Assembly (NCBI RefSeq): GCF_004362045.1
Contig: NZ_SNWX01000001.1
Location: 124,001 to 188,000, forward strand
Direction: 5' to 3'
DNA length: 64,000 nucleotides
Source of the DNA: Halanaerobium saccharolyticum
GTDB lineage: Bacteria > Bacillota > Halanaerobiia > Halanaerobiales > Halanaerobiaceae
The notes under the pieces were generated by a model. The model ran no database searches. It was given only the letters and a program-made list of their open reading frames with translations, and was not told the origin of the DNA. The translations under genes and the position numbers were made by a program. Below, in pieces: positions 21,297 to 56,779 of the stretch. Position 1 is the stretch's first letter, and each line of letters opens with the position of its first letter.

Positions 21297-22592
21297 TTAA
21301 TTATCAAATAACTCAGTATAGTCCTGAAGCACTTTATCAGCCTGACTGTCAGCCTTGTTTAGAGCTTCTTCGGCGGAAGAAACGCCAGTAAACGCTTCTT
21401 CTACAGCTGTATCAACAATATCTCTAATTTCAACAAAATTACCCAGGAGTACACCATTAGCTGCTGGGGACTGAACTCCACTTAATACCTGCAGGAAGGC
21501 GGTCAGGTAGTTGGGATTATCACTAAACCAGCGGTTATCCATTAGAGTTTTAACGGCTGCATTTGTAGCCGGGAAATATCCTGTATCTTTGTGCCACTGG
21601 ATTGTTACATCAGTTGAGCTCAGATAGTCAAAGAATTCTACTACTGCAGCATATTCCTGATCACTGTGACCCTGCATTACCCAGAGGGATGCACCACCGA
21701 TAACTGAATTACCAATTCCATAACCTTCAAAACGAGGAAGGAAGGTAGTTCCAACTTCAAAATCAGCAGTTTCCATAATTGAGCTTAGAGAAGAAGTTGA
21801 CTGAATTAACATGGCAACTTCACCTGCCAGAAAATCCTGGTTGGCAGAGTATTCACGGCCGCCATAGGCGATAACACCTTTTTCTACCATGTCTGTCCAG
21901 CTGCTTAAAACCATTTTTGCAAAATCTCGATTGAGATAAACTTCAGTTGCTCTACCGCTGCGTCCATTATTATTGTTTGCATAAGGCTGATTATGATAAG
22001 CATGCATCTGTTCTAAAATCCAGGCAGGCCAGCCAAAAGAGAGACCATGGTTAGCTGCACCACTGTCGATTATCTGCATTCCCATTTTTTCGATATCGGC
22101 CCAGGTATCCGGAGCTTCCTTAATTCCGGCTGCTTCAAAAGCATCTTTGTTATAGTAGAGCATAGCTGTTGAGGAGTTAAAGGGCATAGAATAAAGCTTA
22201 CCATCAATACTATAGTAGTTTAAAATAGGTTGAATAACACTGCCAAAATCAATTTTACCTTCTGCGATTTCATAAACGGGCACAATGGCTTCACTATCTA
22301 ACATTGTCTGGGTACCTACTTCGTAAACCTGAATAATGTGGGGAGGATTACCCGAACGGACAGCAGAGATTCCCTGAGTTAGAGTTTCGGCATAACTGCC
22401 GGTAAATTGTGCTGTTACATTGATATTTGGGTGTTCTGCGTTAAATCCATCAACAATTTTCTGGACCGCTGCAGTCCGGCCGCCGCTCATCGCATGCCAG
22501 AATTCGAGTTCAATTGTTTGGGCAGAGACCATTCCTGCACTGAGAGCAAAGAGAGTAACTAAAATTAAAATAGTAATTGTTTTTTTTAACAT
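21297..22592 (-). CDS. ugpB: ABC transporter substrate-binding protein, UgpB-like
   Basis: 431 residues, with signal peptide ending GMVSAQ. LEFWHAMSGGRTAAVQKIVDGFN and PPHIIQVYEVGTQTMLDS read in pieces match the UgpB family, which binds glycerol 3-phosphate or glycerophosphodiesters. The C-terminus has the RSPAANGVLLGNF-like segment. It is the last gene of ugpA-ugpE-ugpB, separated from ugpE by about 200 bases. Its ribosome site is separated from the ATG by a perfect hairpin (see the regulatory entry). No UgpC ATPase is encoded nearby. A second, diverged copy lies at 40562-41896. Confidence 0.88.
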   Translation of the reverse strand: MLKKTITILILVTLFALSAGMVSAQTIELEFWHAMSGGRTAAVQKIVDGFNAEHPNINVTAQFTGSYAETLTQGISAVRSGNPPHIIQVYEVGTQTMLDSEAIVPVYEIAEGKIDFGSVIQPILNYYSIDGKLYSMPFNSSTAMLYYNKDAFEAAGIKEAPDTWADIEKMGMQIIDSGAANHGLSFGWPAWILEQMHAYHNQPYANNNNGRSGRATEVYLNRDFAKMVLSSWTDMVEKGVIAYGGREYSANQDFLAGEVAMLIQSTSSLSSIMETADFEVGTTFLPRFEGYGIGNSVIGGASLWVMQGHSDQEYAAVVEFFDYLSSTDVTIQWHKDTGYFPATNAAVKTLMDNRWFSDNPNYLTAFLQVLSGVQSPAANGVLLGNFVEIRDIVDTAVEEAFTGVSSAEEALNKADSQADKVLQDYTELFDN

Positions 22593-22598
22593 AAGTTT

Positions 22599-22637
22599 TC
22601 TTCACTTATTTGAATAAGTGAAGATTACACCTCCTTA
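22599..22637 (-). promoter_or_regulatory. Hairpin between Shine-Dalgarno and start codon of ugpB
   Basis: On the minus strand AAGGAGGTG (22637-22629) is a near-perfect ribosome site but lies 36 bases before the ATG. Between them is a perfect 12-bp inverted repeat, TCTTCACTTATT (arms 22599-22610 and 22613-22624). If the hairpin folds, only 10 unpaired bases remain between site and start, a normal spacing. Confidence 0.6.
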
Positions 22638-22791
22638 TTTTGATGAAAAATGAAGCTAAGTTAGATAACTAATTTTGTAATTGTTATTCAGCTTCCTGAT
22701 TTAATTATTCTAGTCTCACCTCCAGCTATAAAGTGTTTTTTAAGTTCACCTTATTGATCCCTCCTTTGATAGAAAGCAATTTTAACTCTAG

Positions 22792-23619
22792 TTATTTATC
22801 CTGCTGCATGGCAAAACCTTCGACCAGACTTTTCTGCAGAGTTAAATAAACTAATAATGGTGGGATAACCCCCATTATTAGTGCTGCCATAATTACATTC
22901 CACTCCGGTTGGGCATCAGATGGGATCAGCATTTTAAGTCCAATCTGGACCACCCGCACCCGGGCACTGTTGGTAGTTACCAGCGGCCAGAGATATTGAT
23001 TCCAGACCCAGATGAATTCGATAGTAAACAGGGCAACTATGTTACTTTTAGAAAGAGGAATTAAAATTGACCAGAGAAATCTTAGTGGAGTAATACCATC
23101 CATCAGGCTGGCTTCCAGCAGTGATTCGGGAACTGTCATATAGAACTGTTTAAATAGCAAAACTCCAGTTGCACTGGCGAAAAATGGAATAGTCAGCGCA
23201 TAATAGGTATCCAGCCAGCCTAAATTGTCCATTAATTGATAGGTGGGAACAATTCTGATCGGCAGCGGCAGCATGTGCGTAATCAAGATCATGATAAAAA
23301 GAATATTTTTGCCCGGGAAATTTCCGAAATAGACAAAGGCAAAGGCTGCCGAAAGTGAAAGTATAATTTTCCCAACTGCTGTGGTAATTGAAATAAAAGC
23401 ACTGTTAAAAAGTAATTTGCCCATATTGGAACGCTGCCAGGCCTCCCGATAATTATTGAGCATATTGTCTCCAAACTGTAATTTTGGCGGAGAAGAATAA
23501 ACTTCATCTATATTTAAGGTACTGACCATTAAGGCATAAATTATTGGAAATGAAACTAAAAATACAGAAATTATTAAAAATAGATGGATAAAAAGTGTTG
23601 TCGACTTTTTGCGCTTCAT
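22792..23619 (-). CDS. ugpE: ABC transporter permease, UgpE-like
   Basis: 275 residues with six membrane spans. The EAA loop reads EASLMDGITPLRFLWSILIPLSKS, where the cytoplasmic ATPase docks. It is the second permease of a carbohydrate-type (CUT1) importer, most like UgpE. GGAGAGAA precedes the ATG, 15 bases after ugpA. The spacer to ugpB (22593-22791) carries several Shine-Dalgarno-like GGAGG runs but no credible gene. Confidence 0.88.
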   Translation of the reverse strand: MKRKKSTTLFIHLFLIISVFLVSFPIIYALMVSTLNIDEVYSSPPKLQFGDNMLNNYREAWQRSNMGKLLFNSAFISITTAVGKIILSLSAAFAFVYFGNFPGKNILFIMILITHMLPLPIRIVPTYQLMDNLGWLDTYYALTIPFFASATGVLLFKQFYMTVPESLLEASLMDGITPLRFLWSILIPLSKSNIVALFTIEFIWVWNQYLWPLVTTNSARVRVVQIGLKMLIPSDAQPEWNVIMAALIMGVIPPLLVYLTLQKSLVEGFAMQQDK

Positions 23620-23634
23620 TCTGAATTCTCTCCT

Positions 23635-24522
23635 TTACTGATAGAATACTTTTTCGCCTGCATATTTAAACTGAATTACGGTGATTACTGCCACAAAAAC
23701 AAAAAGAATAATTGACTGAGCCGAGGCATAACCGGTCCTCATACTTAAAAAAGCATCCCTAAATAATTTATAAGTGACTATATCTGTGGCCCGGGCCGGT
23801 CCCCCCTGAGTCAGCACATCTACAACTCCAAAAGTTAAAAAGAAGACCTGCAGAGTATTCATAATTAGCAGAAAAAATGTGATCGGCGAAATCAAAGGAA
23901 AAGTAATTCGCCAGAATTTTGTAAAAGGACTGGCTCCATCAATATCGGCAGCTTCCAGTAAGGTTGGAGAAACATTCTGCAGAGCAGCAATAAAAAAGAT
24001 AAAATTGTAGCCGAGCATCCGCCAGCTGGAAGCAATAATAATCAGGGTGAAAGCTGCTGTCCCATTATTAATCCAGTTAAACTCAAGGGTGGTTATTAAT
24101 TGTATATAATAGGACATAAGACCTACATTGGGATGCATTAAAACTCCCCAGATGATTCCGGAGAAGGCAAAAGAAAAAGCAAAAGGCCAGATCAATAAAC
24201 TCTTATAAATCTTTGCTCCTCTAATTTTTTTGTTGGTCACTACAGCCAAAATCAGGGCAGAAGCAATAGAAATAAAGACAGTGACTGCTGTAAAAACAAT
24301 TGAGCGGATTAAACTGTTCCAGTAGGCAGGTGAGGTTAAAAGCCGCTGGAAGTTTTCAAAACCAACATACATTTGTCTGTTGCCAAAGGGTGTGGAGCGA
24401 AAAAAGCTTAAGTAAAGTGACTCCAGGGAAGGATAGATCAAAAAGAGTGTAACTATTGTTATTGATGGTGCAATTAAAAGGTAGGCTAGATATCGATATT
24501 TTTTAGCGAACTTACTGTTCAA
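23635..24522 (-). CDS. ugpA: ABC transporter permease, UgpA-like
   Basis: 295 residues with six membrane spans and an EAA loop EAADIDGASPFTKFWRITFPLISP. FLTFGVVDVLTQGGPARATDI is typical of the UgpA/MalF-type CUT1 permease. The start is TTG behind AGGGGG. First gene of the minus-strand operon. No good minus-strand promoter could be picked in the AT-rich region upstream; the twin LacI-type operators lie 300 bases away and could affect both directions. Confidence 0.88.
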   Translation of the reverse strand: MNSKFAKKYRYLAYLLIAPSITIVTLFLIYPSLESLYLSFFRSTPFGNRQMYVGFENFQRLLTSPAYWNSLIRSIVFTAVTVFISIASALILAVVTNKKIRGAKIYKSLLIWPFAFSFAFSGIIWGVLMHPNVGLMSYYIQLITTLEFNWINNGTAAFTLIIIASSWRMLGYNFIFFIAALQNVSPTLLEAADIDGASPFTKFWRITFPLISPITFFLLIMNTLQVFFLTFGVVDVLTQGGPARATDIVTYKLFRDAFLSMRTGYASAQSIILFVFVAVITVIQFKYAGEKVFYQ

Positions 24523-27021: not shown

Positions 27022-27094
27022 ATATTTTGCAATTAAAATAAGATTATTTGAAAGGGGGAAGATGATAAATCTTGAATAAGATTTATCAAAAAAT

Positions 27095-28078
27095 ATGGCA
27101 AGCTTTATTCTTAAAAGAATGCTTAATGTAATACCTTTGTTGATTTTGATTACAATTATCTCTTTTGCAATTATTCAGCTGCCGCCCGGGGACTTTATCA
27201 GCTCTTATATTGCAAGATTACAGCAGATGGGAGAAATGGTGGGACCTGAGCAGGCTGAACAGCTAAGAGACAGATATGGACTTGATCAACCAATTTATGT
27301 TCAATATTTTAAATGGATGAGTGGGGTTTTAAGGGGTGATTTTGGTTATTCATTTGACTGGCAGCAGCCGGTAAGTAAAGTTATTGGTGAGCGGCTGGCA
27401 TTAACACTTGTTTTGACTTTAAGCACCACCCTTTTTGTCTGGATAGTTGGATTTTTGATCGGCCTTTATTCGGCCACCCATCAATATTCAATTGGAGATT
27501 ACATAGTAACTTTTTTTGGTTTTATTGGCCTGGCCACACCTAATTTTATGCTGGCCCTGATTTTGATGTGGATTGCCTATGCCTATTTCGGTCAAAATGT
27601 GGGAGGCTTATTTTCGCCAGAGTTCCTCAGTGCTCCCTGGAGTATTGCCCGGGTTATTGATATGCTTAAACATCTCTGGATACCGGTTATTATAACTGGA
27701 ACTGCAGGTACAGCTGGACTGATCAGAATTTTTAGAGCTAATCTGCTGGATGAGCTGGGCAAACCATATGTGGCAACTGCCAGAGCCAAGGGACTTTCGG
27801 AATTTAAATTAATCTTTAAGTATCCGGTAAGAATTGCTTTAATACCTTTTGTAGCTACTGTGGGCTGGACATTACCGAAACTGATTTCCAGCGCAACTAT
27901 TACCTCTGTAGTTTTGAGTCTGCCGACAGCGGGTCCTGTGTTGTTAAAAGCTCTGCAGAATCAGGATATGTTTCTGGCGGGAAGTTTTATTCTGCTGTTA
28001 AGTGTTTTAACAGTAGTCGGTACTTTAATCTCGGATATTTTACTGGCCTGGGTTGATCCCAGAATAAGTTATAATTAA
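27095..28078 (+). CDS. ABC transporter permease, DppB/OppB family
   Basis: 327 residues with six membrane spans. The N-terminus FILKRMLNVIPLLILITIISF and the binding-protein-dependent transport loop YVATARAKGLSEFKLIFKYPVRIALIPF in pieces are typical of OppB/DppB. In this genomic setting the peptide-type system probably imports oligosaccharides, as known for related systems in Thermotogales. An in-frame TAA lies 18 bases before the ATG and no Shine-Dalgarno is near it. A six-codon reading frame (27062-27079) with AAGGGGGAAG ends just upstream, so translation may depend on reinitiation. Confidence 0.88.
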   Translation: MASFILKRMLNVIPLLILITIISFAIIQLPPGDFISSYIARLQQMGEMVGPEQAEQLRDRYGLDQPIYVQYFKWMSGVLRGDFGYSFDWQQPVSKVIGERLALTLVLTLSTTLFVWIVGFLIGLYSATHQYSIGDYIVTFFGFIGLATPNFMLALILMWIAYAYFGQNVGGLFSPEFLSAPWSIARVIDMLKHLWIPVIITGTAGTAGLIRIFRANLLDELGKPYVATARAKGLSEFKLIFKYPVRIALIPFVATVGWTLPKLISSATITSVVLSLPTAGPVLLKALQNQDMFLAGSFILLLSVLTVVGTLISDILLAWVDPRISYN

Positions 28079-55000: not shown

Positions 55001-55508
55001 AAAAGAGAAAAGTTCAGAAACTGAAGAACATGTGCAGCGGATGAGTAAAATGGCAAAAAGATTTGGCCAAAAAGTTGGACTATCGAATTCAGAACAGGAT
55101 AGGCTCTATCTTCTGACCCAGATGCATGATATCGGTAAAATTGCAGTTTCTGAAGAAATTTTAAATAAACCTGGTAAATTAAATGAAGAAGAATGGGAAA
55201 TAATTAAAAAACATACCGAAACTGGTTTTAGAATTACTTCTAATCTCGAAGATTTTGCTCATATCTCACATGAAATTTTGCATCACCATGAGCGCTGGGA
55301 TGGTACTGGTTATCCAGAAAGTCTGGCTGGAGAGGAGATACCACTTCTCTCCCGGATGTTGACCATTATCGATTCCTATGATGTAATGATCAGCGGCCGC
55401 CCCTATAAAGAGGCAATGACTGAAAAGGAAGCGGAAGCAGAACTTAAAGTCTGTGCAGATAGTCAGTTTGATCCGGAGTTGGTGGATAAATTTATTGATA
55501 GTTTGTAA
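52098..55508 (+). CDS. PAS/GAF sensor with GGDEF and HD-GYP domains (c-di-GMP turnover)
   Basis: About 1136 residues. GGAGGTG (52085-52091) fits TTG 52098. N-terminal membrane segments (about 15-95), a coiled region, PAS domains (about 245-370 and 380-500), a GAF-like region (505-665), a third PAS (680-810), GGDEF (810-965) and HD-GYP (975-1130). RWGGDEF is intact, and RDED five residues upstream is an RxxD inhibitory site. MHDIGKI and HHHERWDGTGYP keep the HD-GYP residues. Both synthesis and breakdown of cyclic di-GMP appear possible. A REP-like copy ends just before its ribosome site. Confidence 0.9.
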   Translation: MEKSDRLKEIFQSKAAAFILAAAIILIALLARLEVIEPLIILFVIYCSLSFAKKGAVYSTIFAISVLALQDLYNLHIDLSQYLIEVSVIIIAALYIYKSTSSVKTLNFELRERVKELTGLYRISEAAENLNTDLDQLLNEVVQGIPPSYQFPGDCEARIIYQGNEYQTPNFRQTEWYQQKPLEINNKEVGRVEVVYLNQHPIQHQGTVFLEEEFDLLNSITAKITNILKNLEQEKEINEQRRFLSITLNSIGDGLIVTDKEGRVKRLNSIAEDLTGWTIAEAKNRDIREIFNIVNSKTGIEVKNPVDKVLKHGKIVGLANHTKLIARDGSEYHIADSAAPIKTDEGNIYGTVMVFRDVSKNYKMREEIKQREKMFSTAISESPFPIMVHAEDGEVITVNSTWENISGYTEEEIPDIKSWINKAYQGENAEAEKNIKESFTRQKGKAGEFEITTKSGEKRIWEFSTAPLGIGEDGRKLVISTAVDITRRKKAEAELRKLNKIYRTLSMVNQLIVRENSISKLIEEAAKITSEYGKYQNIWIGKINSSNEKIKILTTIENNCSYIKSGESHDLKLENQFLNFKEELIEQEKDSLVINSCKNSNKLDTLPENHCGSRAFFLLRALGKPWGIFSFCTAEENHFDQMEIELLKELTGDISLGIEKIISEQRRQESERKLKISEKRYRQLFENSPVGIFKTTSDGRVQMINPHLAKILGFDSVEETIMHFNHLGQELYVNPERRQQFISQIKETGMVNNFVYQAYDKNNNILWLEMNARVSKEKKDGSFVIEGFCWDITKRRESEEKIKYLGFHDKLTGLYNRAFLEEEIKRVDTPRQQPISIIMGDLNNLKLINDTYGHQTGDQLIKSAAEMIDNSCRDEDIIARWGGDEFVVLLPQTNVKESEVIIKRINQQIEQEEGELAVSISLGTASKTDAEQDLMAVLSKAEDRMYKNKIASRKSARSSVLSAFLTSLKEKSSETEEHVQRMSKMAKRFGQKVGLSNSEQDRLYLLTQMHDIGKIAVSEEILNKPGKLNEEEWEIIKKHTETGFRITSNLEDFAHISHEILHHHERWDGTGYPESLAGEEIPLLSRMLTIIDSYDVMISGRPYKEAMTEKEAEAELKVCADSQFDPELVDKFIDSL

Positions 55509-55571
55509 AATCTCTACGGCCTGGATTGAAATTAATTTAAAGCAATCATAATTAAAATGTGAGGAGGGCAG

Positions 55572-56779
55572 CTGGATGACAAAAAAATAATTGAGGAAGA
55601 TGCTGAAGTGCTTCTTCTACCTAGACCCAGGCGTTTTGGGAAGAGTTTAAACCTTTCAATGCTGCGCTATTTCTTTGAAAAAAATGAAGATGATAACTCG
55701 AATTTATTTAGTGATTTGAAAATAGCGAATACTGGATCCAGATATCTAGAGAAAATGGGACAGTTTCCAGTGATCAATTTAGATTTCAAAGGTTCTAGAG
55801 CTAATAACTGGGAGCTTGCCCTGCAGAGGCTAAAACGAACAATTTCTGTAGAATTTCAGCGACATAGTTATCTTCTGGAAAGTGATAATCTTTTAGATTA
55901 TGAAAAGGAAGAGTACAAAAATATAATGGCTTTAAAAGCTGAGCAGACTGCTTATGAGTTTGCTTTAGAAAATCTTTCGCGTTATTTAAAAGAATATTAT
56001 CAGCAAAATGTTATTATTTTAATAGATGAATATGATGAAGCGGTTCAAGCTGCTTATTTGAATAATTACTATGATCAGATGCTGATGTGAAGGGTCAATT
56101 TGAAGATTTACTAAAGAATAAATCTTTTAAAACCAGAATAGATGAAAATATTGTCTTTACAGATATTAGAACTAAAAGCAGTTCTCTCTGGAGTTTTCTC
56201 TTATACAGTGGTTATTTAAAAGCAAGAAGTAAACAGCGTAGACAGGGCAGACTTTATTGTGAACTTGAGCTTCCAAACCAGGAAATTAAATATATTTATG
56301 AGGAAATAATTATTGACTGGCTGGAAGAAAGTATAAGTAGCAATAAATTGATTCAAATGCTGACAGCCCTGACTACTGGTAATATAGATGAATTTAACCT
56401 GATTTTTAAAGATTTTGTTTTAAACAGTATGAGTACTTTTGATTCAGTGGGAAACGAAGCAGAAAAAGTTTATCATGCATTCGTTCTAGGATTATTATTA
56501 AATTTAAACGATAATTATGAGATCACTTCAAATCGTGAAAGTGGATATGGCCGCTATGATATTATGATTATTCCTGATAAAAATGATAAGTTGGGGATAA
56601 TAATTGAATTTAAAAAAGCTGGTAATGATGAAAATCTGGATGCAGCAGTTAAAGCTGCTCTGGAACAAATAAAGCAGAGAAAATATCAGCAGGAATTAGA
56701 AAAAAGAGGTATAACTAAGGTGCTGCAGTTAGGAATTGCTTTTTCAGGCAAAAAAGTTAAAATTAAAGCTGCTGAATAA
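55572..56779 (+). pseudogene. Decayed AAA-ATPase-like / PD-(D/E)XK nuclease gene
   Basis: Two frames together resemble the AAA-ATPase-like (PF09820-type) proteins with a C-terminal PDDEXK_9 domain. The first (to 56090) lacks the usual start and first 30 or so residues and begins directly at RPRRFGKSLNLSM (Walker A), ending after the Walker B VIILIDEYDEAVQAAYLNNYYDQM in pieces. The second (56087-56779) jumps to FEDLLKNKSFKTRIDENIVF and ends with the nuclease core YDIMIIPD...IIEFKKAG. About 150 residues are missing between them and the frame changes. Such genes are multicopy and often degraded. Confidence 0.8.

Follow-up and report, generated by a model that had tools for sequence, protein, structure and literature searches.

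How translation starts at the ugpB-like gene of Halanaerobium saccharolyticum is not obvious from its leader, in which the strong Shine-Dalgarno (SD) sequence lies 35 nucleotides (nt) from the start codon and a hairpin occupies most of the interval. The gene is found, together with two permease genes that precede it, in a stretch of 64,000 nt, referred to below as the window:

23635..24522, minus strand: ugpA-like permease, the first of the two permease genes
22792..23619, minus strand: ugpE-like ABC permease, the upstream operon gene
22593-22791, minus strand: ugpE-ugpB spacer of roughly 200 nt
21297..22592, minus strand: ugpB-like gene for an extracellular solute-binding protein of 431 amino acids, with its ATG at 22592-22590 and matches to PF13416 and PF01547

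The best matches of all three genes are ugp glycerol-3-phosphate models, each below its cut-off. The name ugpB can thus be taken only as approximate, as the binding-protein gene scores 325.5 bits against the NCBIfam UgpB model, whose cut-off is 411. No in-frame start is possible further upstream, since a TGA in the same frame lies 12 nt before the ATG. The spacer showed no conserved reading frame on inspection by eye, and it harbors two more SD-like motifs, GGAGGGAT and GGGGGTGAG, which are conserved in Halanaerobium.

Read 5' to 3' on the minus strand, the leader consists of AAGGAGGTG-TAA-(TCTTCACTTAT-TCAA-ATAAGTGAAGA)-AAACTT-ATG, the hairpin being given in parentheses. Its elements are the following:

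22628..22636, minus strand: Shine-Dalgarno AAGGAGGTG, 35 nt from the start codon and identical in 7/7 orthologues
22625..22627, minus strand: 3-nt single-stranded link TAA, from the SD to the hairpin
22599..22624, minus strand: hairpin of 26 nt between SD and ATG, 11 bp and a tetraloop, conserved with compensatory changes
22593..22598, minus strand: 6-nt single-stranded link AAACTT, from the hairpin to the ATG

The original prediction had placed the SD 36 nt before the ATG, with a perfect 12-bp hairpin in between and 10 nt left after folding. The separation, the hairpin and the ordinary folded spacing are borne out, and the figures need correction. The arms of the palindrome are 12 nt long, while the foldable stem has 11 bp and a UCAA tetraloop, because a twelfth pair would leave a loop of 2 nt; folding leaves 3+6 = 9 nt after GGAGGTG. 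Counted from GGAGG, the gap is 37 nt unfolded and 11 nt folded. Across 1.65 Mb of the genome, the distribution of GGAGG-to-ATG gaps has its peak at 6-10 nt and tails off at 11-12 nt; the unfolded ugpB gap is therefore far outside the range and the folded one within it. Thus, the SD is indeed too far from the ATG in the linear mRNA, at 35 nt against a genomic norm of 6-10 nt after GGAGG. A closer SD is absent, the best near site reaching -3.9 kcal/mol and the far SD -12 to -13 kcal/mol.

ugpB very probably uses a split, hairpin-accommodated ribosome-binding site, in which the ribosome is taken to act on the folded form of the leader. The 3' end of the 16S rRNA would pair with AAGGAGGTG while the intervening 26 nt kept their stem-loop fold on the 30S subunit. 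This would hold the ATG at a normal distance from the SD, about 9 nt. The hairpin would be required as a spacer-shortener, so that its sequence should matter little and its length be free to vary.

The STAB-SD elements of Bacillus likewise place a strong SD-like sequence at a long distance before the start codon, in genes that have a second functional SD. It might be argued that at ugpB, too, the far SD and the stem-loop mainly protect or delimit the mRNA, through 30S binding of the STAB-SD kind or as a 5' stem left by processing between ugpE and ugpB, which would yield more binding protein than permease. Such a surplus is usually needed, and the SD-like motifs of the spacer are also consistent with such a role. 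However, this explanation requires another functional SD near the ATG. ugpB, in contrast to the Bacillus genes, has no second functional SD, and the far SD must therefore serve initiation. Protection of the mRNA also leaves unexplained the constant folded distance and the near SD of hairpin-less lineages (see below), and as the main function of the element it is very unlikely.

The ugpB spacer has a predicted energy of -12.4 kcal/mol, versus -1.9 +/- 1.7 kcal/mol for dinucleotide shuffles, none of which was as good in 2000 trials. The predicted energy of the hairpin is negative at all temperatures up to about 75 C, and under the standard 1 M salt model its pairing probability is 0.92-0.99 from 25 to 45 C. 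Static folding of the region from -70 to +60 further indicates that in Halanaerobium part of the SD is paired with codons early in the gene (+36 to +46), which makes it somewhat less accessible than in typical genes according to the prediction:

22545-22560 against 22628-22636, minus strand: predicted SD-codon pairing

The hairpin had been proposed to make synthesis of the binding protein depend on temperature or salt. In a broader form of this idea, it would be a switch governed by temperature, salt, a protein or an RNA helicase, with synthesis on in the folded state and off in the unfolded one. Halophiles meet changing salt, the layout makes translation depend on folding, and the predicted SD-codon pairing could represent the second state. 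This pairing is, however, absent from the sister genus, the loops and the upper stem vary so that no binding site is evident, the predicted energy remains negative to 75 C, and the pairing probability hardly changes between 25 and 45 C. No sensing feature was found, and the claim of temperature or salt dependence is not upheld. As the SD is outside the hairpin, melting would turn translation off, not on; this position and the predicted stability also led to the rejection of an RNA thermometer. A regulated switch is thus quite unlikely, and the hairpin appears to be constitutive.

Comparison between species supports the split site. The search, with one genome per species, returned six further orthologues at >=79% identity, five from Halanaerobium and one from a sister genus, and the set of seven, reference gene included, hence represents six Halanaerobium species and the sister genus. 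The SD, a hairpin and the ATG are kept in 7/7. The spacer measures 35 nt in the six Halanaerobium sequences and 41 nt in the sister genus, where the hairpin is different, longer and interrupted by an internal loop. Despite these differences in raw spacing and hairpin sequence between genera, the folded SD-ATG distance is 9 nt in all seven, which supports the central claim that the hairpin brings the SD to working distance as in phage T4 gene 38.

The compensatory changes that had been suggested as a check are seen between the genera and not, to a significant degree, within Halanaerobium. When the stems are aligned from their base, three of the first six pairs differ on both sides between the sister genus and Halanaerobium. 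Within the genus, 8/11 pairs are invariant, one is changed on both sides and one has become G-U; three loops differ. The covariation count is not above that of shuffles (90/500), a weak signal explained by the 94% identity of the sequences. The case for pairing at ugpB therefore rests largely on the sister-genus sequence and on the second gene described below.

Nearly all of some 60 more distant orthologues have an SD 4-12 nt from a start and no far SD, the few exceptions resembling starts misplaced by mechanical assignment. Two orthologues from the same order, at 48% identity, have the SD at 8 nt. A relative in which the stem is lost and the distance kept was looked for and not found, hairpin-less orthologues having nearly always a near SD. 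Most of the paralogous binding-protein genes in this genome likewise have their SD at an ordinary, short distance. In the upstream region L017, the start region of one such paralogue lies between short direct repeats, TTGCTAACGATGGCAAAA and TTGCCAACGATGGCAAAA.

These comparisons bear on two further explanations. The hairpin could be a chance structure or a relic that the ribosome simply unwinds, sliding from the distant SD to the start; stems of >=9 bp at such distances are found at about 0.3% of the upstream positions of the genome. Yet the hairpin persists in seven species of two genera, with compensating changes and a constant folded distance, and a chance or relic structure is extremely improbable. 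Alternatively, a transcription regulator could use the near-perfect palindrome between two genes as its operator in the DNA. Even with up to 3 mismatches allowed, the 3.36-Mb genome has no second copy of the palindrome, whose arms differ in the sister genus; one species has a G-U pair in it, and no promoter-like site above chance was found, all of which makes an operator highly improbable. No Rfam match at the gathering score was obtained in the window or at the loci of ugpB and of the second gene, and the operator, terminator and known-Rfam readings of the hairpin were rejected on the grounds of its single genomic copy, the lack of a promoter-like site and the lack of an Rfam match.

A layout scan of the genome revealed the second gene, which lies outside the window, upstream of fba:

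L120:15134-15812 (contig C1, about 55,134-55,812): SD-hairpin-ATG locus of a zinc-ribbon-like gene
L120:15180-15812: zinc-ribbon-like gene, 210 amino acids

Its leader reads AAGGAGGTGACGA-(CCTGGCCT...AGGCCGGG)-ATAAATA-ATG, and its product matches no Pfam or NCBIfam family. All 13 members of the family keep the full set of seven core pairs of the hairpin, of which three are changed on both sides within the family (G-C/A-U, C-G/U-A and C-G/U-A), and 10-13 nt are left after GGAGGTG upon folding. Covariation at the family level is modestly above that of shuffles, which ignore relatedness (8/500 and 4/500). Pairs were also counted on hand-anchored stems, the aligner having placed the stem one base off in L206 and L207.

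At the level of the order, a hairpin insert precedes the zinc-ribbon gene in 36/37 sequences, with very variable sequence and size. The raw gap after GGAGG ranges from 27 to 69 nt, and the largest insert has several helices. Outside the main stem, 8-14 nt remain in most cases; some values are computed lower (2-7 nt), and the figure is approximate because RNAfold adds weak outer pairs in a few sequences. In the sole genome of the 37 without the hairpin (G014, locus L248), 10 nt separate GGAGG from the ATG. Orthologues with a clear ATG from other families of the class, to which the comparison applies since several others had uncertain assigned starts, mostly have GGAGG 6-9 nt away and no hairpin. 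The matches of model R1, many and weak across the class (E 1e-5 to 1e-2) and mostly due to chance, were used only directly upstream of the orthologous gene. The working distance is thus preserved when the insert is gained or lost, as would be expected of a ribosome that measures the folded distance. As judged by sequence comparison, the zinc-ribbon gene is independent support for the layout proposed at ugpB, and its own layout is far more widely conserved.

The 5' arm of the zinc-ribbon hairpin, which closely follows the SD, begins with ACCTG in most genomes (L244-L260, L198-L210). The AGGT of the SD is a potential alternative partner for it (AGGT-NNNN-ACCT), and a two-state element is therefore possible at this gene.

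A third candidate is located in the window itself, before a peptide ABC permease gene that starts at 27095:

27050-27095, plus strand: SD-hairpin-ATG candidate, hairpin at 27063-27088

Its leader, GAAAGGGGG-AAGA-(TGATAAATCTT-GAAT-AAGATTTATCA)-AAAAAT-ATG, would form an 11-bp hairpin with a GAAT loop and leave 10 nt when folded. The closest relatives of this gene are only 64% identical, and where their start is clear, the SD lies close to it. In a scan of 61% of the genome, a general excess of SD-hairpin-ATG layouts over control motifs was not significant, the controls giving similar counts; a Fisher result for such an excess was discarded, as it counted neighboring positions of only two genes.

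These loci might belong to a small class of chromosomal genes of the Halanaerobiales in which a folded insert sets the SD-to-start distance. The zinc-ribbon gene would have acquired its insert in the common ancestor of the order; ugpB, and perhaps the peptide-permease gene, would have done so independently. With selection acting on the folded distance alone, insert size, up to about 58 nt with several helices, would drift freely, and some inserts may serve control by a helicase or a protein. Such a class is a tentative proposal, and a rather doubtful one in this full form.

Among described systems, the closest precedent found for ugpB is phage T4. Folding shortens the spacing from 22 to 5 nt in T4 gene 38 and from 27 to 11 nt in gene 25 (PMC3014915 and its references 108 and 109), and mutations that destabilize the stem reduce initiation in both (review PMC3014915). 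ugpB resembles these genes in having a strong SD that is too distant, a stem-loop between SD and AUG predicted to restore a normal distance, no alternative SD or start, and a layout that is conserved in close relatives and missing from more distant ones. It differs from them in its spacer of 35-41 nt (9 nt folded), its 11-bp or internally looped stem, and its place in an ABC-transporter operon of a bacterial chromosome. Moreover, the T4 cases are proven by mutation and probing, whereas that of ugpB is supported by sequence comparison and predicted folding.

In E. coli thrS, the SD is start-proximal and not beyond the hairpin. A split ribosome-binding site of the thrS type was rejected for ugpB, as its SD lies upstream of the hairpin. 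The two have in common that a folded hairpin is tolerated on the 30S subunit within the ribosome-binding site, the thrS hairpin (A-14 to U-48) lying between the start-proximal region and a single-stranded standby region further upstream (Sacerdot et al.; PMC3936740). No chromosomal SD-hairpin-AUG case was found in a search of the open-access literature. ugpB is a chromosomal instance of a known but rarely described kind.

The feature is real, the mechanism is probably the one first proposed, and the comparative evidence for it is unusually good. The natural series of insertions and one deletion indicates that, in a cellular genome, the ribosome may read the distance from SD to AUG through folded RNA. 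Sites of this type can persist across an order, and the genes concerned would be miscalled by start-site prediction that relies on an SD close to the start codon. How a stem is held on the 30S subunit can be tested directly on paired orthologues, one having the insert and the other lacking it.
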